From Antedon bifida (taxonomy: Eukaryota; Echinodermata; Crinoidea; Comatulida; Antedonidae), in contig OY727099.1 in the NCBI GenBank assembly GCA_963402885.1, forward strand, positions 24,261,001-24,325,000: DNA of 64,000 bases, read 5' to 3'. Below, piece by piece: positions 1,613-64,000 of the stretch. The notes below the pieces were generated by a model. It ran no database searches. It worked only from the letters and a program-made list of their open reading frames with translations, and was not told where the DNA came from. A program made the position numbers and the translations under genes. Every line of letters begins with the position of its first letter. The first letter of the stretch is position 1.

Positions 1613-3437
1613 TTATGTCTCTCTGATACCTTTATCCCGCAGCATACCGTTTTCGTATTTGTACTCTTTGTTATTAGTATCTGTTTGTTCCGATGCAACA
1701 TCATCGTAATCAGCGGCTGTATTACTTTCTGATTTTGGTGCGCCATCTTGGAAACCATCGTCCAATTCAAGGTACTCAGGAGTGGATTCTTCCGTATTGC
1801 GTGTGAACGGGTGTATGACATAATCATACTTAGTGTTACTGGCTGTCGAGGTCACGTGTGCGCTAGATGACGTAATGTAATCGTAAACGTGCTCAAGATT
1901 ATTTGACAGTCGATTTGAAGGAGTTGTGTTTTTCTTTTTTGCAAATAAACACATAGGCTTATTATTATTATCAAAGAAACGACGAGTAAAATTGCAACTA
2001 CGATAATTACAACCGTTAGGATTTCTGTAATAGAACGCGTTACAGTAACGGGTGTTGTGTGTAAACGTGTATTCATTAGGTCTATTGTTGCGGAAACGTT
2101 TTCCGAGACTTTATTTGTTGTGAGTTGATGTGTAATTGGTTTTTGCGTACGTGTACCTGGTGTCGACTCTAAACGTGTAGTCATTACTGTTGTTGAAATG
2201 TCATCCCGAACATTAGGTGTTGTGAGTCTGACCGTAATTGGTTTTTGCGTACGTGTATCTAGTGTCGACTCTAAACGTGTAGTCATTACTGTTGTTGAAA
2301 TGTCATCCGGAACATTATGTGTTGTGAGTCTGACCGTAATTGGTTTTTGCGTACGTGTATCTAGTGTCGACTGTAAACGTGTAGTCATTACTGTTGTTGA
2401 AATGTCATCCGGGACATCAGTTGTTGATAGTCCGATCGTAACTGGTTTTTGTGTACGTTTAGGCCTCTCTGGTGTCGACGGTAAACGTGTAGTTGTACTC
2501 GACATATGATCCAAAATGTTTATTGTATAGCTCGCTATACTGCTGTAACCACTACTACTAATAGTACAAGTAACCATCTTGCCATTGTCACTGCCTGATG
2601 CACTATTCACAATAATCACCTGCCAATTGCAAATCGACTATCGGTCATAGATTCTACTGGGTTGTTATCCCACGTCCATTCGTAATTATAATTTTCAGGA
2701 TTACCTTTCCCTGAGCAGGTAAGGTTAAAGCTATCACCAACCTCAAGTGGACCTGGTGGTGATTGTTCAATCTCTGCATCTATAGGAAATACTAGCGGAG
2801 TAGTTTCACAAGTTCCTGTCGCTTTACTTTGGAATCCGATAGTGGCTTTACAAGTAAATACACCTCCCTCGTCTTCGGCAGTCAGAGCCGTTGATTCGAA
2901 ATCATTGTTTTGTTGTTGTCCCGAAGTTATTTGTTTTCCGTCGTTATACCATAGTAAATTAATAATATATGAATTATCAGAAGAGGTGAATGAGCATATC
3001 AGCGTTGTTCCTATATCAACAATATTCTCTGGATTGCATGTCAATTCTCCTAATACTAGAGAAGCAAATGTAGAAGATGAGACACTGTAGTATGAATCAC
3101 ATTCAAAGATCTCACAAATGTAGTTGCCTACGTCACCAGAGCCAACATTAGAAATGGAAAGACTTGAAGAAGTTGCGTCGTTCATTAATGCGTATTTTGT
3201 ATCTGAAATTTCAATTCGTTTAGGACTATTAACACGATCGTATGTCCATGTTACGAGATGGTTGTTATTCAATGCTGGTGTCCATTCACACGATATCGTT
3301 GTAGTTTGTCCGTCTGCAACGAGAACCGATTGTGGATGTTCTGTAAAATTATAGTACTGTGCAGAACAGCAATGAAATATATGAAATATAATCAGAAACT
3401 TGAAAAACAGCAATGTCCAATATTGAGAATGAGCCAT
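1613..3437 (-). pseudogene. Gene A: Ig-superfamily receptor, class 3 tail, two frameshifts
   Basis: The start MAHSQYWTLL at 3437 opens a hydrophobic leader ending CCSAQ. Two complete Ig domains and the first half of a third follow (CEW..., NYIC, LTCSGKGNPENYNYEW). At about 2615-2620 the frame breaks by one base, just before the segment that restores Ig3 (KMVTCTIS). A long Thr-rich stalk and a transmembrane helix (VVIIVVAILLVVSLIIII) follow. A second break at about 1935-1955, beside a T-rich run, separates the helix from a tail containing YDYV, YLEL, YDDV and YENG. That tail is most like the one of gene K. The first break reads CAG/GTGATT, so a splice donor could be imagined, but no sibling has an intron there. 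I read it as a recently disabled copy, or two assembly errors in an otherwise normal gene. Confidence 0.75.
2090..2490 (-). repeat. 102-bp coding tandem repeat of the gene A stalk
   Basis: The stalk contains about four copies of a 34-residue unit that begins MTTRLQSTL and ends NVPDDISTTV, each rich in Thr and Ser with KPIT in the middle. The units differ by a few residues. Genes B, C and M have one to three copies of the same unit, so stalk length varies between paralogues. Such Thr-rich spacers are typical sites of O-glycosylation and hold binding domains away from the membrane; this role is inferred. Confidence 0.7.
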
Positions 3438-4152
3438 TGTTGTGAAAGCTCCAAATATTGCGTCTGATCGGTTTAAATTAACTTCCTTATCAAAATTGAG
3501 ATTATATAGGACTATTGTAGATTCCAATCAGTTATGGTAATGACTACAATGTAAGAATAGTTGATGTTTTAACGAATTCCTTTGATAGACATTATTACTA
3601 AAGCCTGACACAATATGATTCATTTGTACCAAATAATATCCAATCATACAGAAATAATTGTTTATCCGATTATGACGTTATTTAGCAGATCGTTTCATAC
3701 TGTATGTGTTATTATTATATTGCGTGGTATGTTATCCAGTAATAATACAATGATGCCCCATATAGTGTTTATTTACTTCATTACCTCCGGATTAGGAATT
3801 TAGAAATATTTTAGCAAAACAATCGAAATGAAAATACTTTGGTTTACCATGACACTGTTGTTGTATACTTCACACGCACAGATTCTTCAGAAGAAAGACT
3901 AACTGAAATACATTGTTATTATCTCATTTACTGCTATCAAAACAATGGTAATCATACAATTACATTTTATAATACTGATTGAACATAGATAGAAATACTG
4001 TAACAATATACAATACGCAGTGACCTAGCCTAGGAGAGTACATAATAATATGTTTACCCTCCAAGTGACAACAAGACATAGAGAACACTATTAGAAGCGA
4101 GCCTTTATGTTCCGATTTTCCATTTCCGATCTCTTTTTGGTCCAACCAGCAT

Positions 4153-4302
4153 TAAGCTCTGTCTACAGTATCAAACTAGTTTGACAAAAGAAGTGCTCAA
4201 ATATGGTAGGGATATGCCCAAATATAGTAGTGGTATGAAATAATGTCCATACATGCCCACATTTTTTTCACATAAAGTTTCATAGTGCAGACACAGAGCT
4301 TT
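4153..4302. mobile_element. MITE with AAGCTCTGTCTAC termini
   Basis: The left end AAGCTCTGTCTACAGTATC and the right end, read in reverse, AAAGCTCTGTGTCTGCACT form imperfect terminal inverted repeats of roughly 30 bases about a 90-base core. The core is the reverse complement of the core of the element at 5167-5305, so the two are members of one family inserted in opposite orientations. It is too short to encode a transposase. Confidence 0.7.
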
Positions 4303-5166
4303 ACTGTTTCCTTATAATGTTCTTTGTATTTTGGAAAATCGCATTTATAACTTTTTTTGTTTATTATTTTTTTGCTTAGATGAACAGAAGTGTGCGTGCG
4401 ACCATTTAATGTCATTAAAAGACAATTAAGTAAAATTTGTCGCCCTCTAACTTCCATTCCTGTTGCTTCCTCGAAGACGTTAATTTTAGTCTATAAATTA
4501 AAATTTACTATCAAAAAACGAGAATTTGGTTTTACTTGTTTTACCAGTACCGGTACTTTACCGTACAATTGATGAACCACGAAGGAAAATCTAAAGCAAA
4601 AACAACATACTTTGACCTTTTGCGTTACTCTGTGTGTTTTTATCTTTGGAATTTAAATCGAAGACGTTATAAATGTTAGTTTTACTCCAGTATCGAGAAA
4701 GATAAGTTTGTTTGGTTTTAAATTATTACTATTGCAGTACCGGTACATTACCGCAGTGCAATCTTATAAATTCTAGATAAAGTATTGATGACCCACAAAG
4801 CTAAGAAAAACATAAGGCAAAAATAACATACTTTGACCTTTCGCGTTACTTTGTGTGGTTTTTATTATTTTTTGTGTATTTCAATTAATATACAATTGGT
4901 TATTGTAAATAGAGGATTTAACAAAAAAAAAAGAATGTTAAGTAAATACTTTGCATTAATTGTATGATACTAAAGGTTAAAATTATGATATTAATGAGGA
5001 AAAACAGAAAAAGTGGAAAACGTTTAGAAATTATGTAATGAAACATTGAATGAATAAAAGTAAATAAAAAATACAAGATAAAAAAAAATCTTTGAAATTT
5101 AAATTGTAGGCCTATGTGGATTTCAAATAAAATGAGAAATGTGGGTCATTTTTTTTAAACACACAC

Positions 5167-5305
5167 TAACGCTTTGTCTACACTACCAAACTTTATGTGA
5201 CATGAAATGTGATGTGCCCATATATGGACATGATATACCACTATTATATTTGGGAATATCACACCCTTTTTTGTCAAACTAGTTTGATAGTGTAGACAGA
5301 GCTTA
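5167..5305. mobile_element. MITE, second copy of the AAGCTCTGTCTAC family
   Basis: The ends are TAACGCTTTGTCTACACTA and, in reverse, TAAGCTCTGTCTACACTA, followed inward by CAAACT on both sides. The core (with CCCATATATGGACATG) matches the core of 4153-4302 in the opposite orientation. It is non-coding. Confidence 0.7.
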
Positions 5306-6646
5306 AGAGTTGAACGAATTATCATCGGAAAGTAACCATCAATCTCCAACTAATTTTGAACTTTTTAAATTATTTCATTTTTCTTGTTGGTTTGATCATG
5401 TAGGAATTACTGTCATGTTGATAATTTTTTTACGGAAGTCCGTGTGGACTTGTTGAACACCCGGGTAGAATTGTACAAAGTACCATCGACAGAAAGGGAA
5501 TTAATGTAACCACCGATCTTTAACCTCGTACATTCATGTTATTGTTTTAATAAATAATAAATCTTTCTATTGTTTCCTGTACTTCCTTGATCTCGTCAGT
5601 GTTGTTTTAATCTCTTCATTTCCAAAATAATTTTGTTCAGTTTGCTTCCTCATACAAGAACGAAAAATAACTCACATTTGGTTTGGTCTTGAAAAAAAAA
5701 CAATAACAGCAAAATCAAATACATAATCAATAACTTTAATTTCATAATCAATAATATTAAACTATCTAATCAATGTAAATCAATTGTGATAATGGTAATA
5801 AAATTAAAATCTATTTGGTTTGCTCTTTAAAAAAACAATAACAATCAATATCAAATACATAATCAATATCTTCGATTGCATAATCAATAACATAGATAAG
5901 CAGCCGAATTCAACTGTAATACGTTTAGTATGAAGTAAGCGGATTTAAAGCTATGATATCTAAGAGTTATTGGACTTTACATCTAATATTTACAATTACC
6001 AACAAGTGATAACGAGTATATAGTTGTTGTAATGCATCCTATTTATGTATTCATTTATCTTAGAAAATTAACATAGAATATTATGGTACTTTATATCAAT
6101 AAGAAAAAAAATATACCTACAAAGTTACAGAAAAAAACTGTATACCTACAAAGTTACAGAAAAAAAACTGTATACAAAGTTACAGAAACAACTCACAGCA
6201 ATCCGCGTTAAAAGACAACTTGACCGAGAACATCGTATTAGGGATGTACATATGATGTCAGAACAATCGCGAGATTTACGATATCGCCGCACGCGATCGC
6301 CGTTACAGCCGTCTCCGTAAATTACTTTGACGTCACAAGTGCATGGCAAAATCTACGTCATGAATACGTTGTTAAATATGGTTCTCGGTCAAGTTGTCCT
6401 TTAGCGTAGATAATGTGATAGTCTGTTAATTTAAATCTATATCCTTCATAGAGGTCGCTGGAGACGTATGTTCTGTTTTAATCCTAGGCCTACATACACA
6501 TTGCAAAAAATTGTCACAAACGATTTGACCAAACGGTTACGTCACATATCGAAAATTGATTAATATTGATTTCTACAACGTATAAAAAATTGTTACAACG
6601 TAAACGGTAAATACTGTACACGTAACGGTTACGTAGCAATATTACG

Positions 6647-8680
6647 TTACTTTTTAATTTGTACAGTTGCGTAATCAAGCCCGTAGTCCTGTGGTCCAGG
6701 AGCTGGGAACGATCCACCTCTTGTAAACTCTATATCTGCGTACGTTAAGCCTTCTACGTTTTTCTTAGTAGGATCTTCGTGCGTAATTTCTGGCGTCCTT
6801 GTCGTTGGTTTGTTAGGCTTAGAATACAGATCTTCAACGTTGTGGGCCTTAGTCGGTCTGCTTGCAGTCGGTTTATTAGGCCTAGTATACAGATCTTCAA
6901 TATTCTCTTTGCTGGTGGCCTCGATGGGCGTTTTCGCATTCCGTTTGTTAGGCTTAGAATACAGATCTTCAAGACTTTCTTCAGCGTTGTGGGCCTTGGT
7001 TGGTCTGCTTGCAATCGGTTTATTAGGCCTAGTATACAGATCTTCAATATTCTCTTGGCTGTGGGCCTCGATCGGCGTTTTCGCATTCCGTTTGTTAGGC
7101 TTAGAATACAGATCTTCAATAATTTCTTTACTGCCGGCCTTGATTGGTTTTACTTGTATTGCATCTGTACTTTTGGCACTTGTCGTTTTTCTCGGCTTAG
7201 CATCACTTGCTTCATTATGTTTCATTGGCTTACCTAAAGAACCATCAGTTTTATCAATGTTTACTGTATTCTGTGGTGTGTCATATTCAACATGGCACCA
7301 ATTTGTTGACAGGTCAGGTTCTGCGTACGTTGTCTCCACATTTTCACACAGGTCATTATCTATTTCAGAACTGTTAATGTTTTGTTCAGTGTTATCGTAC
7401 ATTGGTTTTTCCAATGGTACACTTTCGGGTTTTGTCTTTTCTTTGTCGTACTGTTTCTTGTGCCTTTTCTTTAAAAAGTAAATTATAAATGCTGTTATCA
7501 AACTCACAAGAGCTATCGCAACTACACCAATGATGACAATGATTACTATTGTAGAATCAGTATCCTGGATATTAGTTTCTGGTAGTCTGACGGTAATTGG
7601 CTTGTACGTACGTGTACCTAGTGTCGACTGTAGACGTGTAGTCATTACTGTTGGGGACTCGTCATGAGAGACGTCGGTTGATAGTTGACGTGTAATTGAG
7701 TTGCGCGTACGCGTACCAGATGACGACTGCAAACGTGTAGTCATTTGCTCTATAACTTTCACTGTATAGGTTGCTATACTACTGTTACGACCATTGCGAC
7801 TAATAGTACAAGTGACTATTTTGTCATTGTCACTGCTTGATACACTCTTTACAGTAAGCACACTGTCTTTTGCAAATCGTCTTTCATTTGGTGACGATAC
7901 TACTGGATTGTTATTCCACGCCCATTCATATTCATAATTCTCAGGATTACCTTTCCCTGAGCAGGTAAGGTTGAAGCTATCACCAACTTGAAGTGTACCT
8001 GGCGGTGATTGATCAATCTCTGCATCTATAGGCAGCGGAGTAGTCTCACAAGTTCCTATCTCTTGATTGTCTGATCCGAAGGTGGCTTTACAAGTAAATA
8101 CAGTTCCATAGTCTTTAGCAGTCAAAGCTCTTTCTATAACATCATTTTTAACATCGGACTTAATTTTATTCCTGTCTTTATACCAATGTAAATCAATATC
8201 ATGTGAATAGTGATAAGGAAAATAAGAACATGTCAGAGTTGTTCCAATCTCACCATTGCCATTCTTTGGATCGCACACTATTTCTCCTATCACTACAGAA
8301 GCAAATTCAGAAAGACTGTATAAACCACCACCTTCCGAGATATCACACCTGTAGTTTCCTACATCATTGTAACCAACATTAAAAATGGAAAGATGTGCAG
8401 ATGTTGCTTTATTTGTTACATTGTACTTTAAAGTTGACCTTTCAATTGCTTGCGACTCACCAACATGAGGGTATGCTGACCAGAAAACGTCATTGTTTTC
8501 ATTCAATGCTGGTCTCCATTCACACGATAACGTTGCTGTTTGTCCTTTCCCAACGAGAACATGTTTTGGATGTTTTGTAAAACTATAGGATTGTGCACAG
8601 CAGTAGAAAATACTATACAATATAACCAGGCACTTGAAAAACAGCAATGTACAATGTTGATGATGAGCCATTATAAACAT
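6647..8680 (-). CDS. Gene B: three-Ig receptor with YxxP repeats and paired ITIMs
   Basis: This is an intact frame of 677 residues. The first ATG gives MFIMAHHQ; the second (8671, context ATAATGG) is an equally good start. The leader ends YCCAQ. Ig1 (Cys about 53 and 112), Ig2 (about 151 and 197) and Ig3 (about 240 and 291) each have the Cys-Trp-Cys pattern, and Ig1 has the DVGNYRC signature. A Thr-rich stalk leads to a transmembrane helix at about 376-402, then KKRHKK. The 275-residue tail has YDNT, YAEP, YDTP and five YSKP/YTRP motifs in a 49-residue repeat. It ends with LTYADI (Y647) and LDYATV (Y670), both fitting the ITIM consensus (I/V/L/S)xYxx(I/V/L). ITIMs recruit SH2 phosphatases and pYxxP binds Crk-type SH2 domains, so an inhibitory/adaptor-docking receptor is inferred. 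No ortholog name can be given. Confidence 0.88.
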   Translation of the reverse strand: MFIMAHHQHCTLLFFKCLVILYSIFYCCAQSYSFTKHPKHVLVGKGQTATLSCEWRPALNENNDVFWSAYPHVGESQAIERSTLKYNVTNKATSAHLSIFNVGYNDVGNYRCDISEGGGLYSLSEFASVVIGEIVCDPKNGNGEIGTTLTCSYFPYHYSHDIDLHWYKDRNKIKSDVKNDVIERALTAKDYGTVFTCKATFGSDNQEIGTCETTPLPIDAEIDQSPPGTLQVGDSFNLTCSGKGNPENYEYEWAWNNNPVVSSPNERRFAKDSVLTVKSVSSSDNDKIVTCTISRNGRNSSIATYTVKVIEQMTTRLQSSSGTRTRNSITRQLSTDVSHDESPTVMTTRLQSTLGTRTYKPITVRLPETNIQDTDSTIVIIVIIGVVAIALVSLITAFIIYFLKKRHKKQYDKEKTKPESVPLEKPMYDNTEQNINSSEIDNDLCENVETTYAEPDLSTNWCHVEYDTPQNTVNIDKTDGSLGKPMKHNEASDAKPRKTTSAKSTDAIQVKPIKAGSKEIIEDLYSKPNKRNAKTPIEAHSQENIEDLYTRPNKPIASRPTKAHNAEESLEDLYSKPNKRNAKTPIEATSKENIEDLYTRPNKPTASRPTKAHNVEDLYSKPNKPTTRTPEITHEDPTKKNVEGLTYADIEFTRGGSFPAPGPQDYGLDYATVQIKK
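6809..7114 (-). repeat. 147-bp coding minisatellite encoding YSKP/YTRP cassettes
   Basis: The unit is 49 residues and carries two phospho-site motifs, EDLYSKPNKR and EDLYTRPNKP, separated by basic, Pro/Thr-rich spacers. Gene B has two full units plus a final EDLYSKPNKP. Because the repeat lacks stop codons in several frames it produces long spurious open frames on both strands here. Confidence 0.85.
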
Positions 8681-12789: not shown

Positions 12790-14907
12790 TTATTTCTTAA
12801 CACACTTCACTGCTTTTGTGCGTACCGATGCATTTTCGTACACGTCGTTTACTTCAACTGTACTTGCATGCACCTTGCTGACGTCATCCTTGCGGTTATC
12901 TGAAATGGTTTTTCCACCTCTTCTTGATCTCTGTAATAATTTAACACTTTCGGACTTGGTCTTTGAGTTGTCAGAAGTCGAGATACCTTTGGGACGATGT
13001 AATTTACTGTTTTCGTACTCAGCCTCATTATCATTTGCTCTAATATTTACTGAAATATAAGTTTGTGACATTGAAGCAACATTGTACTTGGATGCAGCAG
13101 GCATATTAGTTGTTAGTGGCTTCCTCTTGATGTGACAGTCGACATCGGCGTTGTCATCAACAAGTTCAATATATTCTGCAGTGCCTTCTTTTTCTGTGGC
13201 GCCTATGCCTGATGTTTCCACATACTCGTATTCATTTTCACTGTCTGTTTCATCGTTTTGATCGTCTGCTGATGTTACATCGTCATATTCATTTTCTGTG
13301 CTGTGGATGTCTGCTGATACCACATAATCATAGTTATGTTTTATGTCTGATTTAATTGTCAAATCGGCACTGTGGGTGTCTGTTGTTGCCGCATAGTCAT
13401 ACTCGTTTTTGCTTTCTCTTTCAACTGTCATTTCTTCTGATGCAACATAATCATACTTATTCTTTTCTGTTAATTGGTCGTATGGGGGCACGTCAGGATC
13501 TTCGTAAACAATATCCAAGTTTCCATGTGTGTCTGACATTGCAGGTTCTTCATATACAGCAAAATCTGTTATCAAAGTTTCGCGTAGAGGGCCATTTACG
13601 CACGTTTTAATAATTTCTTGATCAGTGTTACCATACATTGGTTCTTTCAATGTTACACTTTCAGCTTTTGTTTTGTTCTCATCCTGTTTCTTGCGCCTTT
13701 TATGTAAAATGTAATTTACAATTGTTGTTATCAAAATCACAAAAGCTATCGCAACTACGCCAATGATGACAATGATTACTATTGTAGAATCATTATCCTG
13801 GATACTAGTTCCTGATAGGTCTATAATTGGCTTGTGTGTATGTGTACCTAGTGTCAACTGTAAACGTGTAGTCATTACTGTTGGGGACTCATCATCAGGG
13901 ACGTCAGTTGATAGTTGACGCGTAATTGAGTTTCGCGTACGCGTACCAGATGTCGATAGCAAACGTGTAGTCATTTGTTCTATAACGTTCACTGTATAGG
14001 TTGCTATACTACTGTTACGACCATCACGACTAATAGTACAAGTGACTATTTTGTCATTGTCACTGCTTGATACACTCTTCACAGTAAGCACATTATCTTT
14101 TGCAAATCGATTTTTATCTGTCGACGATCCTACTGGTTTGCCATTCCACGTCCATACATACTTATAATAATCAGGATTACCTTTCCCTGTGCAGGTAAGA
14201 TTAAAGCTATCTCCAACCCGAAGTGGACCTGGCGGTGATTGTTCAATCTCAGCATCTATAGGCAGTGGAGTAGTTTCACAAGTTCCTATCTCATCACCTC
14301 TGAATCTTGCTGTACACGTAAATAAAGCTCCATAGTCTTCTGTAGACAGAGCTCTTGATTGTATAACATTACTTTGTACTTGTAATACTGATGTCAATCT
14401 ATTTCGGTCTCTATACCACATTAAATCAATATTATTGTAAAGGTAAGGATAATCATAAGAACATGTCATAATTGTTCCTATATCGGCATTCTCATTATCT
14501 GGATTGCATGTTATTTTACCTACGTAAGCAATTTCAGAACTTCTGTATGTATAGCCGTCATATATATCACACTTGTATATTCCTTCATCATTATAATCAA
14601 CATTAGAAATGAAAAGGATTGATAAGGTTGCTTCTTTTGTTAAAGTGTATTTTAAAGTTGACTTTTCAATTGCTTTCGTATCACCAACACGAGGGTATGC
14701 TGACCAGAGAACGGTATGTTTGCCATTCAATGCTGGTGTCCATTCACACGACAGCGTTGCTGTGTGTCCTTCAGCAACAAGAACCGATTGTGGATGCTGT
14801 GTGAAAGAATATGATTGTGCACAACAGCAGTGGAATATACCATACAATATAATCAAGCACTTGTACAACAGTAATGTACAATATTGAAGATGAGACATTT
14901 TAAACAT
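12790..14907 (-). CDS. Gene C: three-Ig receptor with acidic multi-tyrosine tail
   Basis: Intact frame of 705 residues from ATG (MFKMSHLQYC). The leader ends HCCCAQ. Ig1 has Cys 54 and 113 with CEW and EGIYKC; Ig2 has Cys 149 and 198; Ig3 has Cys 239 and 290 with the family motif GKGNPDYYKY. A Thr-rich stalk precedes a transmembrane helix at about 374-401, followed by HKRRKKQ. The 304-residue tail is acidic and holds about fifteen tyrosines in SH2-type contexts: YGNT, YEEP, YEDP, YDQL, YDYV, YDDV, YEYV, YIEL, YISV, YENS and YENA. YxN favours Grb2-type SH2 domains and YxxP Crk-type; YxxV/L is less specific. There is no spaced YxxL pair that makes a classical ITAM. The C-terminus is basic (VRTKAVKCVKK). 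Role as an adaptor-recruiting immune-type receptor is inferred. Confidence 0.88.
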   Translation of the reverse strand: MFKMSHLQYCTLLLYKCLIILYGIFHCCCAQSYSFTQHPQSVLVAEGHTATLSCEWTPALNGKHTVLWSAYPRVGDTKAIEKSTLKYTLTKEATLSILFISNVDYNDEGIYKCDIYDGYTYRSSEIAYVGKITCNPDNENADIGTIMTCSYDYPYLYNNIDLMWYRDRNRLTSVLQVQSNVIQSRALSTEDYGALFTCTARFRGDEIGTCETTPLPIDAEIEQSPPGPLRVGDSFNLTCTGKGNPDYYKYVWTWNGKPVGSSTDKNRFAKDNVLTVKSVSSSDNDKIVTCTISRDGRNSSIATYTVNVIEQMTTRLLSTSGTRTRNSITRQLSTDVPDDESPTVMTTRLQLTLGTHTHKPIIDLSGTSIQDNDSTIVIIVIIGVVAIAFVILITTIVNYILHKRRKKQDENKTKAESVTLKEPMYGNTDQEIIKTCVNGPLRETLITDFAVYEEPAMSDTHGNLDIVYEDPDVPPYDQLTEKNKYDYVASEEMTVERESKNEYDYAATTDTHSADLTIKSDIKHNYDYVVSADIHSTENEYDDVTSADDQNDETDSENEYEYVETSGIGATEKEGTAEYIELVDDNADVDCHIKRKPLTTNMPAASKYNVASMSQTYISVNIRANDNEAEYENSKLHRPKGISTSDNSKTKSESVKLLQRSRRGGKTISDNRKDDVSKVHASTVEVNDVYENASVRTKAVKCVKK

Positions 14908-47297: not shown

Positions 47298-47400
47298 CAT
47301 ATACATAGATTTATGTTTAGTTTGTTTCTGAATTTATAAATAGTTTACCACTTCATCTATAATACCAGGCATATATTCAGTACCTCGTTTGTATAAAATT

Positions 47401-49926: not shown

Positions 49927-51291
49927 TCATTTAATATTTTCGTACTTAATTGTCACATTGTCAGAAGTTGCTATGCCTTTGATACGCAATTGACTATTTT
50001 CGTACGTGGCCTCTTTGCTGCAAATATCCGTTGGTTGTAAGGACACATCATCGTTCTCGACTGCGGTCATATTTTGTTCTGGTTTTTGTGGGCCCTCATG
50101 AGAACTGTCTTCTACTTCAATGTATTCAGCACTGGTGTTCTCTGCGATGTGTGTACACGGATATATGGCATAATCATACGTGTATGTGTCATTGCTTGTC
50201 GGTTGTCGATTTAAAGGAATTATGTTGTCCCTAGATACGTTTCTTTTTTGCAATATTATTATTATTACAGAAACTACAAATGAAATTGCAAGTACACTAA
50301 TAACAACCATTAGTGTTGGGGGCTCGTCACCCGATGAGATATTAGTTTCTGTCGTTCTAGGCCTACTTGAAATGTACTCCAACACGTTTAGGCCTATTGT
50401 ATATCTCGCTGTACTGCTTTTGCGACCACTACGACTGATAGTACAAGTAATTATGTTGCCATTGGCATTACTTGATACATCCGCCACAATAAACACGTTA
50501 CCTATTGCAAATGGCCTTTTATTTGGTGACGATCCCACTGGTTTGTTATTCCATGTCCATTCATATTCATAGTAATCAGGATTACCTTTCCCTGAGCAGA
50601 TAAGGGTAAAGCTATCACCAACCTGAAGTGTACCTGGCGGTGATTGTTCAATCGCTGCATCTATAGTCAATACTAGAGGAGTAGTTTCACAAGTTCCTAT
50701 CACTTGATATTGAGGTCTGAAAATGGCGTTACAAGTAAACACAGCTCCATCGTCTTCAGCAGTCAAAGCCCTTGATTCTAAAAAATGTTTGTCTTGTGTG
50801 TCTGATATTACTATATTTCCGTCTTTATACCATCGTAAATCAATATCATTTGAAGTATAAGGATAAGAACATGTCATCTTTGTTCCTATCTCACCATTAT
50901 CATATTCTGGACTGCACCTTATTTCTCCTATCACTACAGCAGCCTGATTAGAATAACTGTTTTCAATTATATCACACCTGTATGTTCCTACATCATCAGA
51001 ATCAACATTGAAAATGGAAAGATATGAAGATGTCGCGTTGTTTGTTATATTGTATTTTGAATTTGATCTCTCAAGTACTTGAAACTGACCACCATCCTGA
51101 GGGAAGAATAACCATCGAAAGTTATGCCGTTCATCCAATTCTGGTCTCCATGCACATGATAACCTTGCTGTGTTTCCTTCAGCAACAATAACCGGTTGTG
51201 GATGTTTTGTGAATAGATATATTTGTGCAAAACAGTCGTAAAATATACTACACAATACAATCAGGCACAGCAAGCAATGATGATGAGCCAT
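49927..51291 (-). CDS. Gene K: three-Ig receptor with short class 3 tail
   Basis: Intact frame of 454 residues from MAHHHCLLCL. The leader ends DCFAQ. Ig1 has Cys 46 and 106 (CAWRPELDERHN, DVGTYRC), Ig2 Cys 141 and 187, and Ig3 Cys 232 and 283 (GKGNPDYYEYEW). A very short stalk leads to a transmembrane helix at about 325-347 (LMVVISVLAISFVVSVIIII), then LQKR. The tail, about 105 residues, has YTYDYA, AIYPC, YIEV, YENS and a terminal YENI, the last two fitting the YxN pattern of Grb2-type SH2 sites. The tail is homologous to that of gene A and ends earlier than class 2 tails; the tandem array behind it occupies the place of the class 2 C-terminus. A signalling receptor of unknown ligand is inferred. 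Confidence 0.87.
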   Translation of the reverse strand: MAHHHCLLCLIVLCSIFYDCFAQIYLFTKHPQPVIVAEGNTARLSCAWRPELDERHNFRWLFFPQDGGQFQVLERSNSKYNITNNATSSYLSIFNVDSDDVGTYRCDIIENSYSNQAAVVIGEIRCSPEYDNGEIGTKMTCSYPYTSNDIDLRWYKDGNIVISDTQDKHFLESRALTAEDDGAVFTCNAIFRPQYQVIGTCETTPLVLTIDAAIEQSPPGTLQVGDSFTLICSGKGNPDYYEYEWTWNNKPVGSSPNKRPFAIGNVFIVADVSSNANGNIITCTISRSGRKSSTARYTIGLNVLEYISSRPRTTETNISSGDEPPTLMVVISVLAISFVVSVIIIILQKRNVSRDNIIPLNRQPTSNDTYTYDYAIYPCTHIAENTSAEYIEVEDSSHEGPQKPEQNMTAVENDDVSLQPTDICSKEATYENSQLRIKGIATSDNVTIKYENIK

Positions 51292-51680: not shown

Positions 51681-53099
51681 ACGATTTTGAGTAAAACGCA
51701 ACGCTGAAGTATCCCTGTGTTGTAATGTATTGTGGAGATCTACTTCTACATAATGTTGAAAACGATTTTTTTTATTGTCGCATCTTCGTTTATACCTTTT
51801 CACATTTGTATTTCTGGTTCTGTATGAATAAGGAGAAGCCTATTATAGTTATTGAATAAATGTCCGCGATTATTTTATTTACAACAGTTTTTAAATAAAC
51901 ATTGTAAAATTAAAATAGAGGGCTTCCTCTAGAGGTCATATTTATATTATTAAATATTATAATGACAACTAATTAAATTGAAATGAATTGGTCTTTATAA
52001 CCAAAATAGATTTGAAAAACACGTTTTAATTTTCTTACATACATATGATTTTTCCCATTAAAATATTTCGGGGATTTTTATGTTAATCATTACGAATGTC
52101 CTTTCATTTATTTTTCATCCATATAGGCTATGTTTAGTCAGTTTGTTGTTTGTTTTTTTCATCCATATAGGCTTTGTTTAGTTAGTTTGTTGTTTGTTTT
52201 TTCTTCCGTTCATTAGGTTGTTAATCATGTTATTATATATATTTTATAAATTCGTTCTTAAGGTTTTATTTTTAGTCTATTTGCATTTAGATATTGTTGT
52301 CCACGAGTTATAAAAAACTTCTTATATACTAAGGCATATTACTGTAGATATAATTATGTGGGTTTATTGATCAATAAATAAGAAAAATAATTAATTTATT
52401 ATTAAATTAATATTTTTGTTATTCATTATGGAATAAGGTAGGCCTACTATATTTACATTACCGTAAAATAAAATGTACGCCTTTCACGGAGTTTGAGTTT
52501 TTGTTAAATAATAGAAAAATTCTATAAAGAATTGAACGGCGCCGTCTCCGTGTGAATGCAGCATTATACTGAGCATTAAACCGAAAGGCAAGTCAAATCT
52601 AAAGTAAAACAATAACAAAACAAATTATTGGTTTCACAAAAAGTTGTTTTCTATCTTTAAAAAACATTATCAAAGAATTAGATATCTTTTTTTCCAACGT
52701 GTGTAATACCTGATTATATTTATTTATTAAATGCATATTCACAAAATTACAAACTTGTAACGTGTAAATAACTGAATAATCTCTCTAATTTATTTCAATT
52801 TACTTTCTTAAACAACAGACCAATTAATTACTGTTCATTTCAACGTATAATTTAGTCATTATTGATTTTGTTTGTATCTGAAAATATGTCAGACTCATCC
52901 ACGGGATAGGAACAGTATTTTGGAAATAGTGAAAGATAAAGATTTCACTTAACAAAAGCCTTAATAGATCATACCTGGAAAACTGAAATGGCAGATATTT
53001 ATATTTTTAAATAGGTGTTTAATGTAATGTATTGTTTGGTGCAGTTTTCATTGTTGTTTTTGATCTTACGTTTGGTTCTGTTTTGCTTCTTCTATTTTC

Positions 53100-53534
53100 T
53101 TGTAGACTTCAGTGGTTTTCTGCGTACAGATGCGTTTTCGTATACGTCGAAGTCCAGATACCTTTAAGACGATGTAATTTACTGTTTTCGTACTCAGCCT
53201 CATTTTTCTAGTATTTATTGAAATTAGTTTAGTGGTATTGAAGCATCATTGTACTCAGCCACAGTAGGCCTATTAGTTTCTGTTTTAGTAGGGCAGTCAT
53301 GGAATCAGCATCAGTGTTGTCATCGACAACCTCAATGTATTCTACAGAGCCGTTATTCTCTGTGGCCCCTATATCTGATGTCTCCACATAATCATACTCA
53401 TTTTCACTGTCTGTTTCAGTGGTCATTTTATCGTTTTGATTGTCTGCTGATTTTACACAGTCATATTCATTTTTTTTGTTACAACTTTCTTTCTTATTCT
53501 CGTTCACGTTGATCTCAACTGATGCCCTTTCCAT
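53100..53534 (-). pseudogene. Orphan class 2 tail, second copy
   Basis: An open frame on the minus strand encodes NEYDCV, SENEYDYVETSDIG, ENNGSVEYIEVV and DDNTDADS, then shifts frame before the remnants of AEYENSK and YENASV at 53120-53210. It is the partner of 42440-42851. The 5' piece (VEINVNENKKESC) is not found in the intact receptor tails, so the source was a tail variant with no intact member in this window. Confidence 0.6.
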
Positions 53535-54808: not shown

Positions 54809-56884
54809 TTAAACATTCATAAACAAGTCTCTTTCATTGTTTGTTTTTGCATGAATATTCTGTACGGTTGGTTTATGTTTTTCTTTTTTTAATTTCTTAG
54901 CACACTTCGCTGCTTTTGTGCGTACCGATGCATTTTCGTACACGTCGTTTGTATCAGGTACCTTGGTGACGTCATCTTCGCGATTATCTGAAAAGGTTTT
55001 TCCTTCTCTTCTTGATCTCTGTGATAATTTAACACTTTTGGACTTGGTTTTTGAGTTGTCAGAGGTCGAGACACCTTTGGGACGATGTAATTTACTGTTT
55101 TCGTACACAGCCTCATTATCATTTGCTCTAATATTTACTGAAATATAAGTTTGTGACATTGAAGCTACATTGTACTTATTCTTGGATGCAGCAGGCATAT
55201 TCGTTTTTAGTGGCTTCCTCTTGATGTGACAGTCGACATCGGCGTTGTCATCAACGTTCAATGTATTCTGCAGAGCCTTCTTTTTCGGGGCTATGCCTGA
55301 TATTTCCACATAATCATACTCATTTTGACTGTCTGTTTCATCGTTTTGATCGTCTGCTGATGTTACATCTTCATATTCATTTTCTGTGCTGTGGATGTCT
55401 GCTGATACCACATAATCATTGTTATTTTTAATGTATGATTTTGTTGTCATCTCGGCACTGTGGGTGTCTGTTGTTGCCGCATAGTCATACTCGTTTTTGC
55501 TTTCTCTTTCAACTGTCATTTCTTCTGATGCAACATAATCATACTTATCTTTTTCTGTTAATTGGTCGTGTGGCGGCACGTCAGGATCTTCGTAAACAAT
55601 CTCCAAGTTTCCATGTGTGTCTGACATTGCAGGTTCATCATATACAGCCAAATCTGTTATCAATGTTTCGCGCAGAGGGCCATCTATGCGCGTTTTAATA
55701 ATAATTTCTTGATCAGTGTTACTATACATTGGTTCTTTCAATTGTACATTTTTAGGCTTTGTTTTGTTGCCACCCTGCTGTTTCTTACGCCTTTTATGTA
55801 AAATGCAAATTACAATTGCTGTTACCAAAATCACAATAACTGTTGCAACTACGCCAATGACAATAATCAATGTTTGAGGCTCGTTGTCTGTGACATTGTT
55901 TGCTGATAGTAGGTCTGTAACAGTAGACCTTCCTTGTGTTGTGCGTGAACGTGCAGTTGTACTTTGCGTATTTTCTGCAACATTTATTGTATGACTCGCT
56001 GTACTGCTGTTACGACCACCACGACTAATAGTACAAGTAACTATTTTTTCATTGGCACTTGATACATCCTTTACAGTAAGCACATTACCTATTGCAAATC
56101 TTTTTTTATCTGACGACGTTCCTACAGGTTTGCCATTCCACATCCATGTATAATTATAATAATCAGGATTACCTTTCCCTGAGCAGGTAAGATTAAAGCT
56201 TTCTCCAACCTGAAGTGGACCTGGCGGTGATTGTTCAATCTCTGCATCTATAGTCAATACTAGCGGAGTAGTTTCACAAGTTCCTATCACTTGATTTGAG
56301 ATGATAGCTTTACAAGTAAATACAGCTCTATCGTCTTCTGCAGTCAAAACTATTGATTCTATAACGTGTTTGTCTTGGGTGTCTGATTGTACTTGTTCGT
56401 CTGATTTATACCATTGTAAATAAATCAAATTTGAAGGATAAGAAAAAGTATAAGAACATGTCATCGTTGTTCCTATTTCACCATTATCATATTCTGGATT
56501 GCACGTTATTTCTCCTAGCACTACAACAGCCTCTTTAGAAACAGTGTCTCTGTCTTGTCTGATATCACACCTGTATTTTCCTATGTCACTAGAAGCAAAA
56601 TTAGAAATGGAAAGATGTGAAGACGTTGCGTTATTTGTTAAATTGTATTTTGAATTTGATCTCTCAATTACTTGATACTGATTACCATCCTGAGGGAAAA
56701 ATACCCATTCAAAGTTATGCCGTTCAAGCAATTTTGGTCTCCATGCACACGATAGCATTGCTGTGTTTCCTTCAGCAACAAGAACCGGTTGTGGATGTTT
56801 TGTGAATTCATATATTTGTGCAAAACAGTCGTAAAATATACTACACAATACAATCAGGAACAACAAGCAATGATGATGAGCCAT
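54809..56884 (-). CDS. Gene L: three-Ig receptor with extended acidic multi-tyrosine tail
   Basis: Intact frame of 691 residues from MAHHHCLLFL. The leader ends DCFAQ. Ig1 has Cys 46 and 105, Ig2 Cys 143 and 191, Ig3 Cys 234 and 284 with GKGNPDYYNY. The stalk is moderate and the transmembrane helix lies at about 338-362, followed by HKRRKKQQ. The class 2 tail has YSNT, YDEP, YEDP, YDYV, YDYA, YEDV, YDYVE, YISV, YENS and YENA. It shares with gene F the compensated frameshift that removes YIEL (IAPKKKALQNTLN). The end is longer than in siblings: after KAAKCAKK the stop codon is lost and about 27 further residues are read. The ectodomain is closest to genes G, I and K, the tail to F, so the gene is a chimera of cluster modules. 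Confidence 0.87.
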   Translation of the reverse strand: MAHHHCLLFLIVLCSIFYDCFAQIYEFTKHPQPVLVAEGNTAMLSCAWRPKLLERHNFEWVFFPQDGNQYQVIERSNSKYNLTNNATSSHLSISNFASSDIGKYRCDIRQDRDTVSKEAVVVLGEITCNPEYDNGEIGTTMTCSYTFSYPSNLIYLQWYKSDEQVQSDTQDKHVIESIVLTAEDDRAVFTCKAIISNQVIGTCETTPLVLTIDAEIEQSPPGPLQVGESFNLTCSGKGNPDYYNYTWMWNGKPVGTSSDKKRFAIGNVLTVKDVSSANEKIVTCTISRGGRNSSTASHTINVAENTQSTTARSRTTQGRSTVTDLLSANNVTDNEPQTLIIVIGVVATVIVILVTAIVICILHKRRKKQQGGNKTKPKNVQLKEPMYSNTDQEIIIKTRIDGPLRETLITDLAVYDEPAMSDTHGNLEIVYEDPDVPPHDQLTEKDKYDYVASEEMTVERESKNEYDYAATTDTHSAEMTTKSYIKNNNDYVVSADIHSTENEYEDVTSADDQNDETDSQNEYDYVEISGIAPKKKALQNTLNVDDNADVDCHIKRKPLKTNMPAASKNKYNVASMSQTYISVNIRANDNEAVYENSKLHRPKGVSTSDNSKTKSKSVKLSQRSRREGKTFSDNREDDVTKVPDTNDVYENASVRTKAAKCAKKLKKEKHKPTVQNIHAKTNNERDLFMNV

Positions 56885-57259: not shown

Positions 57260-57276
57260 TACCGCCCCCTAGAGTG
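57260..57276. promoter_or_regulatory. GC-rich promoter element of gene L
   Basis: TACCGCCCCCTAGAGTG, about 376 bases upstream of the ATG, identical to those of genes G, I and K. Confidence 0.45.
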
Positions 57277-58838: not shown

Positions 58839-59240
58839 TTATTTATTAAATGCATATTCACAAATTACAAATGTAGAAGATGAGACACTGTTGTATGAAT
58901 CACATTCAAATATCTCACAAATGTAGTTGCCTACGTCACCAGAGCCAACATTAGAAATGGAAAGACTTGAAGAAGTTGCGTCGTTTATTAATGCGTATTT
59001 TGTATCTGAAATTTCAATTCGTTTAGGACTATTAACACGGTCGTATGTCCATGTTACGAGATGGTTGTTATTCAATGCTGGTGTCCATTCACACGATAGC
59101 GTTGTAGTTTGTCCGTCTGCAACGAGAACCGATTGTGGATGTTCTGTAAAATTATAGTACTGTGCAGAACAGCAGTGAAATATATGAAATATAATCAGAA
59201 ACTTGAAAAACAGCAATGTCCAATATTGAGAATGAGCCAT
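58839..59240 (-). pseudogene. Truncated copy of gene A: leader and most of Ig1
   Basis: The ATG at 59240 begins MAHSQYWTLLFFKF, almost identical to gene A through leader and Ig1 (CEWTPALNNNHL, DVGNYICEIF). The similarity stops at 58866, after SVSSSTF, where the frame runs into AT-rich DNA and ends after eight more residues (VICEYAFNK). Ig2, Ig3, helix and tail are absent. It marks the left edge of the segmental duplication; a secreted single-Ig product is possible but the ending looks accidental. Confidence 0.8.
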
Positions 59241-59957
59241 TCTTGTGAAAGCTCCAAATATTGCGTCTGATCGGTTTAAATTAACTTCCTTATCAAAATT
59301 CAGATTTTATAGGACTATTGTAGATTCCAATCATTTATGGTAATGACTACAATGTAAGAATAGTTGATGTTTTAACGAATTCCTTTGATAGACATTATTA
59401 CTAAAGCCTGACACAATATGATTCATTTGTACCAAATAATATCCAATCATACAGAAATAATTGAAATAATAAGTGTTATTATTATATTGCGTGGTATGTT
59501 ATCCAGTAATAATACAATGATGCCCCATATAGTGTTTATTTACTTCATTACCTCCGGATTAGGAATTTAGAAATATTTTAGCAAAACAATCGAAATGAAA
59601 ATACTTTGGTTTACCATGACACTGTTGTATACTTCACACGCACAGCTCTCATCAGAAGAAAGACTAACTGAAATAAATTGTTATTATCTCATTTTTATTT
59701 TATTCCGATTGGTTTAGTAAAAATTCATTTACTGCTATCAAAACAATGGTAATCATACAATTACATTTTATAATACTGATTGAACATAGATAGAAATACT
59801 GTAACAATATACAATACGTAGTGACCTAGCCTAGGAGAGAAGTGTACATAATAATATGTTTACCCTCAAAGTGAAAACCAGACATAGAGAACACTATTAA
59901 AAGCAAACCTTATGTTCCGATTTTCCATTTCCGATCTCTTTTTGGTCCAACCAGCAT

Positions 59958-60107
59958 TAAGCTCTGTCTACAGTATCAAACTAGTTTGACAAAAGAAGTG
60001 CTCAAATATGGTAGGGATATGCCCAAATATGGTAGTGGTATGACATAATGTCCATATATGGCCACATGTTTTTCACATAAAGTTTGATAGTGCAGACACA
60101 GAGCTTT
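59958..60107. mobile_element. MITE, duplicate of 4153-4302
   Basis: Same ends (AAGCTCTGTCTACAGTATC) and core as the element at 4153-4302, carried along with the segmental duplication rather than inserted anew. Confidence 0.7.
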
Positions 60108-60977
60108 ACTGTTTCCTTATAATGTTCTTTGTATTTTGGAAAATCGCATTTATACTTTTTTTTTTTGTTTCGATTGTTTTTTTGCTTAGATGAACAGAAG
60201 TGTGCGTGCGACCATTTTAATGTCATTAAAAGACAATTAGGTAAATTTTGTCGCCCTCTAACTTCCATTCCTGTTGCTTCCTCGAAGACGTTAATTTTAG
60301 TCTATAAATTATAGTTTACTATCAAAAAACGAGAATTTGGTTTTACTTGTTTTACCAGTACCGGTACTTTACCGTACAATTGATGAACCACGAAGGAAAA
60401 TCTAAAGCAAAAACAACATACTTTGACCTTTTGCGTTACTCTGTGTGTTTTTATCTTTGGAATTTAAATCGAAGGCGTTATAAATGTTAGTTTTACTCCA
60501 GTATCGAGAAAGATAAGTTTGTTTGGTTTTAAATTATTACTATTGCAGTACCGGTACATTACCGCAGTGCAATCTTATAAATTCTAGATAAAGTATTGAT
60601 TACCCACAAAGCTAAGAAAAACCTAAGGCAAAAATACCATACTTTGACCTTTTGCGTTACTTTGTGTGGTTTTTATTATTTTTTGTGTATTTCAATTAAT
60701 ATACAATTGGTTATTGTAAATAGAGGATTTAACAAAAAAAAAAAAGAATGTTAAGTAAATACTTTGCATTAATTGTATGATACTAAAGGTTAAAATTATG
60801 ATATTAATGAGGAAAAACAGAAAAAGTGGAAAAAGTTTAGAAATTATGTAATGAAACATTGAATGAATAAAAGTGGTGGTGAACTACACAAGATAAAAAA
60901 AAATCTTTGAAATTTAAATTGTAGGCCTATGTGGATTTCAAATAAAATGAGAAGTGTGGGTCATTTTTTTTAAACAC

Positions 60978-61116
60978 TAACGCTTTGTCTACACTACCAA
61001 ACTTTATGTGACATGAAATGTGATGTGCCCATATATGGACATGATATACCACTATTATATTTGGGAATATCACACCCTTTTTTGTCAAACTAGTTTGATA
61101 GTGTAGACAGAGCTTA
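60978..61116. mobile_element. MITE, duplicate of 5167-5305
   Basis: Same ends and core as the element at 5167-5305, carried along with the segmental duplication. Confidence 0.7.
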
Positions 61117-62145
61117 AGAGTTGAACGAATTATCATCGGAAAGTAACCATCAATCTTCAACTAATTTTTAACTTTTTAAATTATTTCATTTTTCTTGTTG
61201 GTTTGATCAATCAATCAATAACTTTAATTTCATAATCAATAATATTAAACTATCTAATCAATGTAAATCAATTGTGATAATGGTAATAAAATTAAAATCT
61301 ATTTGGTTTGCTCTTTAAAAAAACAATAACAATCAATATCAAATACATAATCAATATCTTCGATTGCATAATCAATAACATAGATAAGCAGCCGAATTCA
61401 ACTGTAATACGTTTAGTATGAAGTAAGCGGATTTAAAGCTATGATATCTAAGAGTTATTGGACTTTACATCTAATATTTACAATTACCAACAAGTGATAA
61501 CGAGTATATAGTTGTTGTAATGCATCCTATTTATGTATTCATTTATCTTAGAAAATTAACATAGAATATTATGGTACTTTATATCAATAAGAAAAAAAAT
61601 ATACCTACAAAGTTACAGAAAAAAACTGTATACCTACAAAGTTACAGAAAAAAAACTGTATACAAAGTTACAGAAACAACTCACAGCAATCCGCGTTAAA
61701 AGACAACTTGACCGAGAACATCGTATTAGGGATGTACATATGATGTCAGAACAATCGCGAGATTTACGATATCGCCGCACGCGATCGCCGTTACAGCCGT
61801 CTCCGCAAATTACTTTGACGTCACAAGTGCATGGCAAAATCTACGTCATGAATACGTTGTTAAATATGGTTCTCGGTCAAGTTGTCCTTTAGCGTAGATA
61901 ATGTGATAGTCTGTTAATTTAAATATATATCCTTCATAGAGGTCGCTGGAGACGTATGTTCTGTTTTAATCCTAGGCCTACATACACATTGCAAAAAATT
62001 GTCACAAACGATTTCTCCAGACGGTTACGTCACATATCGAAAGTTGAATAATATTGATTTCTACAACATGTGATAAACGTATTAAAAATTGTTACAGCGT
62101 AAACGGTAAGTACTGTACACGTAACGGTTACGTAGCAATATTACG

Positions 62146-64000
62146 TTACTTTTTAATCTGTACAGTTGCGTAATCAAGCCCGTAGTCCTGTGGTCCAGGG
62201 GCTGGGAACGTACCGCTTTTAAACTCTATTTCTGCGTACGTTAAGCCTTCTACGTTTTTCTTAGTAGGATCTTCGTGCGTAATTTCTGGTATTCTTGTAG
62301 TTGGTTTGTTGGGCTCTTCAAGACTTTCTTTAACATTGTTGGCATTGGTTGGTCTGCTTGCAGTCGATTTATTAGGCCTAGTATACAGATCTTCAATATT
62401 CTCTTTACTGTGGGCCTCGATCGCATTCCGTTTGTTAGGCTTAGAATACAGATCTTCAAGACTTTCTTCAGCGTTGTGGGCCTTGGTTGGTCTGCTTGCA
62501 ATCGGTTTATTAGGCCTAGTATACAGATCTTCAATATTCTCTTTACTGTGGGCCTCGATCGCATTCCGTTTGTTAGGCTTAGAATACAGATCTTCAAGAC
62601 TTTCTTCAGCGTTGTGGGCCTTGGTTGGTCTGCTTGCAGTCGGTTTATTAGGCCTAGTATACAAATCTTCAATATTCTCTTTACTGTGGGCCTCGATCGG
62701 CGTTTTCGCATTCCGTTTGTTAGGCTTAGAATACAAATCTTCAATAATTTCTTTACTGCCGGCCTTGATTGGTTTTACTTGTATTGCATGTGTACTTTCG
62801 GTACTTGTCGTTTTTCTCGGCTTAGCATCACTTGCTTCATTAGGTTTCATTGACTTACCTAAAGAATCATAAGTTTTATCAATGTTTACTGCATCCTGTG
62901 GCGTGTCATATTTAACATGGCAACCATTTGCTGACAGGTCAGGTTCTGCGTACATTGTCTCCAAATTTTCACAATTTTCTATTTCAGAACTGTTAATGTT
63001 GTGTTCAGTGTTACCGTACACTGGTTTTTCCAATGGTACACTTTCGGGTTTTGTCTCTTCTTTGTCGTACTGTTTTTTGTGCCTTTTGTTTAAAAAGTAA
63101 AATGTAAATGCTGTTATCAAACTCACAAGAACTATCGCAACTCCGCCAATGATGACAATGATTACTATTGTAGAATCAATATCATAGATATTAGATTCTG
63201 ATAGGTCTGTAATTGACTTGTACGTACGTGTACCAAGTGTCGACTGTAAACGTGTAGTCATTACTGGTGAAACGTCATGCGCGACATTGGTTGTTGATAG
63301 TCTTACCGTAATTGACTTGTGTGTATGTGTACCTGGTGTCGACTGTAAACGTGTAGTGATTACTGTTGGGGACTCGTCAGCAGGGACGTCGGTTGATAGT
63401 TGACGCGTAATTGAGTTGCGCGTACGCGTTCCAGATGTAGTCATTAGCTCCATAACGTTCACTGCATAGGTTGCGACACTACTGTTACGACCATCACGAC
63501 TAATAGTACAAGTAACTATTTTGCCATTGGCTTTGCTTGATACACTCTCTACAGTAAGCACATTACCTATTGCAAATCGTCTTTTGCTTGGTGACGATTC
63601 TACAGGCTTGTCATTCCACGTCCATTCATATTCATAATAATCAGGATTACCTTTCGCTGAGCATGTAAGATTAAAGCTATCCCCAACCTGAAGTGTACCT
63701 GGCGGTGATTGTTCAATCTGGGCATCTATAGGCAGCGGAGTAGTTTCACAAGTTCCTATCACATCACCTTTGAATGTAGCTGTACACGTAAATAAAGCTC
63801 CATAGTCTTCTGTAGACAAAGCTCTTGCTTGTATAACATTAGTTTGTAGTACTGATGTCAAAATATTTCGGTCTGTATACCACATTAAATCAATATTATT
63901 GTAAAGGTAAGAAGGATAATCATAAGAACATGTCACAATTGTTCCTATATCGGCATTGTCATTATCTGTATTGCATGTTATTTCCCCTACATAAGCGGAT
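62146..64000 (-). CDS. Gene M: Ig receptor with six YxxP cassettes and paired ITIMs (5' partial)
   Basis: The frame is open to the window edge, so leader and Ig1 lie outside. The visible part starts at the Ig1/Ig2 junction (AYVGEITCN). Ig2 and Ig3 are complete (GKGNP is AKGNPDYYEY here). A stalk with three 34-residue Thr-rich units follows, then a transmembrane helix (STIVIIVIIGGVAIVLVSLI) and NKRHKK. The class 1 tail has YGNT, YAEP, YDTP and three YSKP/YTRP repeat units with six YxxP sites; a final site is lost (ESLEEPNKP). It ends with LTYAEI and LDYATV, both ITIM-like. Gene B is the nearest relative in the tail, gene C in Ig2, which again indicates mixing. An inhibitory/adaptor-docking receptor is inferred. 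Confidence 0.87.
   Translation of the reverse strand, partial: SAYVGEITCNTDNDNADIGTIVTCSYDYPSYLYNNIDLMWYTDRNILTSVLQTNVIQARALSTEDYGALFTCTATFKGDVIGTCETTPLPIDAQIEQSPPGTLQVGDSFNLTCSAKGNPDYYEYEWTWNDKPVESSPSKRRFAIGNVLTVESVSSKANGKIVTCTISRDGRNSSVATYAVNVMELMTTSGTRTRNSITRQLSTDVPADESPTVITTRLQSTPGTHTHKSITVRLSTTNVAHDVSPVMTTRLQSTLGTRTYKSITDLSESNIYDIDSTIVIIVIIGGVAIVLVSLITAFTFYFLNKRHKKQYDKEETKPESVPLEKPVYGNTEHNINSSEIENCENLETMYAEPDLSANGCHVKYDTPQDAVNIDKTYDSLGKSMKPNEASDAKPRKTTSTESTHAIQVKPIKAGSKEIIEDLYSKPNKRNAKTPIEAHSKENIEDLYTRPNKPTASRPTKAHNAEESLEDLYSKPNKRNAIEAHSKENIEDLYTRPNKPIASRPTKAHNAEESLEDLYSKPNKRNAIEAHSKENIEDLYTRPNKSTASRPTNANNVKESLEEPNKPTTRIPEITHEDPTKKNVEGLTYAEIEFKSGTFPAPGPQDYGLDYATVQIKK
62298..62742 (-). 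repeat. Coding minisatellite of gene M (YSKP/YTRP cassettes)
   Basis: Three units of 49, 46 and 46 residues (the last two lack KTP), each with EDLYSKPNKR and EDLYTRPNK. Gene B has two and a half units at the matching place. The repeat keeps several frames open on both strands, which explains the long spurious frames here. Confidence 0.85.

Follow-up and report, generated by a model that had tools for sequence, protein, structure and literature searches.

On the minus strand of the 64,000-nucleotide window of Antedon bifida DNA analyzed here (the window being this whole stretch) lie 13 copies of one family of immunoglobulin (Ig) receptors, in which similar ectodomains are joined to different classes of tyrosine-rich tail. 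What the analysis adds is that a cluster of single-exon Ig receptors has recombined its ectodomains both with tails that carry immunoreceptor tyrosine-based inhibitory motifs (ITIMs) and with tails that do not. Judged from sequence, these are probably, and we say so with modest confidence, germline-encoded type I receptors of the immunoglobulin superfamily (IgSF) in tandem array, which work like the paired receptors of vertebrates and are shuffled inside one exon. Such pairing of activating with inhibitory receptors is best known in vertebrates, whose pairs arise by exchange of tail exons. If our reading is right, the same paired logic has been reached by a different genomic route, and the locus offers a compact system for asking how ligand specificity and the sign of a signal are uncoupled, with coding units short enough for easy chimaeras and haplotype surveys.

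Single-exon receptors on one strand

The copies keep the letters A-M, in coordinate order, of the first-pass annotation, which had placed 13 family members on one strand; similarity and frame analysis of the window agrees. Seven copies, the same seven that had been called unbroken, are single frames from ATG to stop: B (6647-8671), C (12790-14898), F (28501-30531), G (31579-33288), H (35699-37342), K (49927-51291) and L (54809-56884, with a C-terminal extension to its tail). Each intact copy encodes a leader, three Ig domains, a stalk rich in serine and threonine, one helix and a tyrosine-rich tail. Frame changes disrupt A (1616-3437), D (17879-19775, in the transmembrane (TM) segment and tail), E (21256-23279, in the tail), I (39438-41314, near the end of the TM segment) and J (44206-46199, a single change close to the tail end). 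The frame of M (62146-64000) is open to the end of the window, with its leader and Ig1 beyond it.

The longest stop-to-stop frame in the window has 711 codons, whereas the longest frames of 40 first-order Markov sequences of equal length averaged 137 and did not exceed 194. The pooled ratio of nonsynonymous to synonymous differences (pN/pS) is 0.58 for the leader, 0.88 for Ig1, 0.82 for Ig2, 0.66 for Ig3, 0.76 for the stalk, 0.89 for the TM segment and 0.67 for the tail; values below 1 in all segments fit coding throughout, though Ig1 and the TM segment come near 1. Vertebrate paired receptors use one exon for each Ig domain and several for the tail, which the CEACAM literature partly backs. 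The coding regions of the seven intact copies are intronless and do not have this arrangement. There may be an intron in the 5' untranslated region, and inspection of the 5' flanks by eye gave no convincing splice acceptor.

Three classes of tail

Type II tails are found in B, G, H and M, and type I tails in the intact copies C, F and L and in J; K has a short type III tail. The broken copies D, E and I were assigned to type I by tblastn, and A is type III-like by inspection. Nine tails (B, C, F, G, H, J, K, L and M) were scanned for motifs, each against 500 residue-shuffled versions of itself, with [ILVS]xYxx[ILV] as the ITIM consensus. The analysis bears out the earlier description of tyrosine-motif tails and adds to it a class with tandem ITIM-consensus sites and a source of the YxxP repeats in a coding minisatellite.

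All four type II tails, with 9-14 tyrosines each, contain two ITIM-consensus sites, LTYA[DE]I and LDYATV. This count was matched by 19, 6, 19 and 19 of 500 shuffled tails for B, G, H and M, respectively. The two ITIM tyrosines are separated by 23 residues in B and H and by 22 in G and M, and the second lies 7 residues from the last residue in every case. YxxP sites number 7 in B, 5 in G, 3 in H and 8 in M (equaled in 0, 1, 9 and 0 of 500 shuffles); the G tail includes YDEP. In B these repeats are encoded by a minisatellite at 6831-7144 (minus strand) with a 72-base unit and a 147-base double unit, and in M by one at 62315-62773 (minus strand) with units near 72-75 and 138 bases. The antisense frames at 6779-7481 and 62275-62872 are by-products of these repeats.

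In the type I tails scanned (C, F, J and L) the only ITIM match is in J, at its frame-shifted end. Each of the four has two YxxP sites (reached by 42 to 52 of 500 shuffles); [DE]Yxx[ILV] occurs 2-3 times (4 to 43 of 500) and YxN 0-3 times (65 to 500 of 500). In the type III tail of K, YEN occurs twice (66 of 500) and YxxP is lacking; its single ITIM match is reached by chance in 143 of 500 shuffles. An immunoreceptor tyrosine-based activation motif (ITAM) is absent from all nine tails, as is a hemITAM-like [DE]GYxx[LI] site, and the helices of the nine scanned copies contain no charged residue; the two in K precede the helix.

A search of the G tail against PDB sequences gave no match up to E 10. 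The M protein (62149-63999) has a weak Pfam match in its tail to SIT, the SHP2-interacting transmembrane adaptor (E 0.0017, 19.3 bits, cut-off 27.6); those in B, C, F, G and L are weaker (E 0.05-0.2), and all fall below the cut-off.

Ectodomains and tails assort independently

The ectodomain and the tail have separate histories, a point beyond the first-pass annotation. A nucleotide tree of the ectodomain (13 rows, 855 columns) requires six or more changes of tail type. Shuffled tail labels need 5.4 changes on average and were as low as the observed count in 200 of 200 trials, so the tail changes no less often than at random. Forcing each tail type into one clade costs 172.9 log-likelihood units for type II, 193.6 for type I and 63.3 for type III, and the constrained trees are rejected by the approximately unbiased (AU) test with p values of 6e-54, 3e-54 and 3e-6. 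Separate trees require five changes for Ig1 (12 rows), six for Ig2 and six for Ig3.

Individual copies make the same point. In the neighbors B and C, ectodomain plus 5' flank are 88.4% identical over 3.9 kb, and the tail and 3' flank of C match those of F (93.1% over 1.2 kb). G, K and L differ in Ig1 by synonymous divergence (dS) of only 0.11-0.18, yet their tails are of types II, III and I, respectively. M joins an Ig2 like that of C (dS 0.12) to a tail like that of B (dS 0.10). Identity among C, F, J and L is 93.1-99.1% in tail columns 500-640 and 69.9-74.0% in Ig1 and Ig2 together. Similar ectodomains with differing tails, as in paired receptors of vertebrates, are present in G/K/L and in B/C/M, and the four type II copies, with their ITIM-consensus sites, are candidate inhibitory members.

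Where the parts were joined was estimated with eight two-parent crossover scans in alignment codons, on which the TM segment occupies approximately codons 440-466. Five of the eight map to the TM and juxtamembrane stretch: C (B|F) at 469-473, M (C|B) at 447-453, L (G|F) at 491-496, G (L|H) at 494-496 and B (C|M) at 495-496, the last a weak two-parent case as its left side scores just 40 of 93 for C. Two breakpoints fall near the border of Ig3 and the stalk, L (K|F) at 310-312 and F (D|L) at 307-308; D ends at the TM segment, so the latter scan could not extend into the tail. The breakpoint in D (F|J) at 193-199 is weak (log-likelihood ratio 5.3). D also shares its 5' flank with J (divergence K 0.077) and its ectodomain with F; flank, ectodomain and tail therefore all behave as modules.

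Ectodomain fold and variation

Pfam models Ig_3, Ig_2, I-set and V-set exceed their curated cut-offs in all seven intact proteins, which places these in the IgSF; neither a sushi family nor a fibrinogen-related domain or family is listed for any of the seven. Ig1 is V-set-like in its predicted fold. The ectodomain looks like the recognition-type module proposed earlier. Its neighbors by sequence and fold include titin, VEGF receptors, NCAM, DSCAM, LRIG1, nectin-like 4, Sidekick and CD22, and those by structure single out no one family. SIRP, KIR and LILR are absent among the matches listed in the PDB and Foldseek comparisons, which excludes nothing. Foldseek TM-scores on the model are 0.25-0.44 among the 50 matches listed, with an unreliable predicted placement of the domains relative to one another.

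Variation in Ig1 is biased toward one face. Amino-acid diversity is 0.69 on strands C and C', their loop and the FG loop, and 0.37 elsewhere; in a circular-shift test the real placement alone, of 100, reached so high a value, with a face that was picked after the diversity profile had been viewed, so that the test was not blind. The ratio of nonsynonymous to synonymous rates (dN/dS) is 1.18 on this face (bootstrap range 0.74-1.78) and 0.70 (0.47-0.97) in the rest of Ig1. In Ig2 it is 1.05 (0.71-1.69) for the variable loops and 0.58 (0.40-0.86) for the remainder, and in Ig3 it is 0.65 (0.47-0.90). The variation of the Ig1 face is relaxed or diversifying, and positive selection is not proven. 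As the sole cause of Ig1 variation it is unsupported, since synonymous divergence is elevated as well.

Tandem arrays of about 100 bases at 2116-2458 (A) and 63209-63433 (M), both in the coding region, extend the stalk, so minisatellite variation affects stalk length too.

A model for paired signaling and its alternatives

How might these receptors work? We propose that the V-set-like Ig1 and the variable Ig2 would bind ligand, that the stalk would hold the Ig domains away from the membrane, and that the tail would set the meaning of binding. The motifs suggest phosphorylation of the tails by Src-family kinases. Phosphorylated YxxP sites attract SH2 domains of the Crk/Nck type, YxN those of the Grb2 type, and tandem ITIMs the SHP-type phosphatases. 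In type II receptors the proximal YxxP series would accordingly be a docking region for Crk/Nck-like SH2 adaptors, and the two ITIM-consensus sites would bind tandem-SH2 phosphatases of the SHP type, for an inhibitory or switching output. The intact type I and the type III receptors, which have no ITIM pair, may dock SH2 adaptors such as Grb2 at their YxxV/L/I and YxN sites, with an activating or scaffold output to which, in type I, the two YxxP sites could contribute. Unequal crossing-over or gene conversion, mostly in the common TM/juxtamembrane stretch, would join one ectodomain lineage to different tails. In its strongest form the model describes a germline-combinatorial locus of paired inhibitory and non-inhibitory receptors, where any ectodomain can be joined to any of three tails and the minisatellite tunes the number of YxxP sites; the joining would be free since a single exon and a common TM/juxtamembrane stretch permit unequal exchange. 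We hold this extension tentatively, at somewhat below an even chance.

Several observations weigh against the paired-receptor model. With neither an ITAM nor a hemITAM-like site in the nine scanned tails, and no charge inside their helices, an activating partner is a matter of inference. Recombination within the ectodomain may distort the very tree on which tail changes were counted, and three of the eight breakpoint scans land outside the TM/juxtamembrane stretch. In both sequence and fold, neural and adhesion members of the IgSF come as near as immune ones do. On the Ig1 face dN/dS does not clearly exceed 1, every domain when pooled is at or below 1, and the face was chosen with the profile in view. 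The synonymous divergence of Ig1 is also raised relative to the 5' flank, which means that exchange of segments as well as selection may shape this domain.

Different functions can be read from the same architecture. The receptors could be phagocytic or pathogen-binding, with every tail serving as a dock for Crk, Nck and Grb2 in actin remodeling and the ITIM-like pair recruiting kinases or scaffolds instead of inhibiting. The YxxP series and the YDEP-like sites speak for this, as does the fish receptor IpLITR 1.1b, whose tandem ITIMs are 22 residues apart with a YDEV proximal to them and which is reported to promote phagocytosis besides inhibition (PMC4810170). The case is one of analogy, however, and the type III tail of K is devoid of YxxP; we judge it unlikely. 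A polymorphic self/non-self system comparable to Hydractinia Alr or Botryllus FuHC/FcoR, with individuals marked by their ectodomain variants and ITIM-type tails setting tolerance or rejection, would equally have a tandem cluster, a variable V-set-like domain and ITIMs in part of its members, and the excerpted account of 53 Botryllus FcoR loci describes ITIM, hemITAM and core-motif tails (PMC12065747). Against it, hemITAM-like sites are missing from the nine tails and the sushi family from the seven intact proteins, and a single haplotype was examined. We rate allorecognition as quite unlikely.

That the proteins are lineage-specific adhesion or neural recognition molecules with tyrosine-rich tails would agree with their neighbors, from titin and NCAM to DSCAM and Sidekick. 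These Ig neighbors are unspecific, however, and birth and death of copies, pairs of ITIM-consensus sites, face-biased variation and the swapping of tails suit immune families better, which makes this explanation very unlikely. It is highly improbable that the tail swaps are artefacts of assembly, with paralogues collapsed or mis-joined. Tails as alike as those of C, F, J and L (93-99% identical in columns 500-640) are repeats of a kind that can mislead assemblers, but the swaps recur in several copies, their junctions differ, and the sequences on both sides have diverged rather than being identical.

Comparison with known receptor families

The first-pass annotation recognized no described family, and we likewise did not find the same architecture in searches of an open-access paper library or in Pfam and PDB. 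SIRP-alpha, which combines a V domain with two other Ig domains and has similarly worded C-terminal ITIMs, is a lead only. The systems below are compared as they appear in excerpts of the cited papers. Mammalian CEACAMs resemble this cluster in that close ectodomains come with ITIM or ITAM-like tails through recombination and gene conversion, in their birth and death, and in the variation of the CFG face of the N domain. The CEACAM tail, however, spans several exons and is replaced as exons, whereas here it belongs to a single frame and none of nine tails has an ITAM (PMC2832619).

A tested analogue in tail layout is channel catfish IpLITR 1.1b, with distal ITIM tyrosines 22 residues apart and a proximal YDEV, where our type II tails have a spacing of 22-23 and proximal YxxP. 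That receptor is from a vertebrate and has six tail tyrosines rather than 9-14, and the excerpt mentions no YxxP minisatellite. Its ITIMs recruit SHP-1/2, its proximal YDEV is proposed to bind Nck, and its output is inhibitory or phagocytic depending on context; YxN is also given there as a Grb2 SH2 site (PMC4810170).

Invertebrate IgSF families of the ITIM type are described in Botryllus (FcoR) and Hydractinia (Alr). The FcoR genes are likewise clustered and encode type I proteins with a V-type Ig domain, an ITIM at some loci and different tyrosine motifs at others. They differ in a sushi domain between the V-type and C2-type Ig domains, in the hemITAM and in a motif swap by alternative splicing (PMC12065747). 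The oyster receptor CgIgIT2 is a molluscan Ig protein with an immunoreceptor tyrosine motif, but has five Ig domains and no cluster in the account excerpted; its motif is called an ITAM in the review text and the receptor inhibitory in the cited title (PMC11999971). Aplysia AcFREP1 shares the intronless condition of an invertebrate IgSF gene but is a fibrinogen-related protein, a family not listed for the seven intact proteins here (PMC11999971). A 2026 review of invertebrate immune diversification does not mention the ITIM in its excerpted text (PMC13428168).

Growth of the cluster by duplication

The intact and frame-broken copies, the orphan fragments and the duplicated blocks agree with the earlier picture of a tandem expansion with decaying members. 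The growth visible in the window comes from DNA duplication that takes flanks with it; examples are duplicated blocks of 3.9, 4.0, 2.4 and 1.4 kb, non-coding flanks included, that are 88.4%, 85.7%, 93.8% and 94.3% identical, respectively. The 400-base 5' flanks are alike within the groups G/I/K/L, B/C/E and D/J (K 0.04-0.085) and dissimilar between groups (K 0.35-0.89 for G-H, H-L, D-F and F-J). A retroposed founder, that is, an older retroposition event, may precede this growth. Within 1.2 kb downstream of the copies there are two A-runs of at least ten, each of exactly ten (C and E); target-site duplications were not searched.

The approximately 400 bases upstream of the ATG in G/I/K/L, B/C/E and D/J are conserved above the Ig1 synonymous sites of the same pairs, which may reflect constraint on, or homogenization of, a promoter region. 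Some 5' flanks have a common GGGGGCGGTATAC-like block.

Orphan fragments and other features of the window

Five orphan fragments, all on the minus strand, are supported at E < 1e-5: a leader (27490-27576), a type I tail downstream of J (42424-42800), a leader with the start of Ig1 (47372-47531), a type I tail downstream of L (53083-53474) and a leader with Ig1 that is 97% identical in amino acids to A (58857-59240). The earlier count of at least seven is unconfirmed because three further stretches reach E 0.04-0.43 only. The two fragments that consist of a tail alone, 1.3-1.4 kb downstream of J and L, belong to one duplicated 4 kb unit; they are copies in decay, or else alternative 3' ends, which is less likely.

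Scans of the window for tRNA and Rfam families were empty, and the 42 pattern matches among viral contigs included no relative. Eight of 24 intergenic frames of at least 75 codons were scanned with Pfam, with none above the cut-off and one weak match, and no other gene was recognized. A minus-strand frame at 26150-26434, without a Pfam match, looks like the C terminus of a protein of a non-LTR retrotransposon. Directly downstream of K, a 113-base unit is repeated in five head-to-tail copies with 97% matches (49347-49913), and a 36-base tandem repeat of 3.6 copies lies between H and I (37959-38088). Inverted repeats of about 150 bases (4152-4309, 5172-5306, 59957-60114 and 60972-61117), 77% identical and about 1 kb apart, stand on the upstream side of A and of the orphan fragment at 58857-59240 and are possibly a mobile element.

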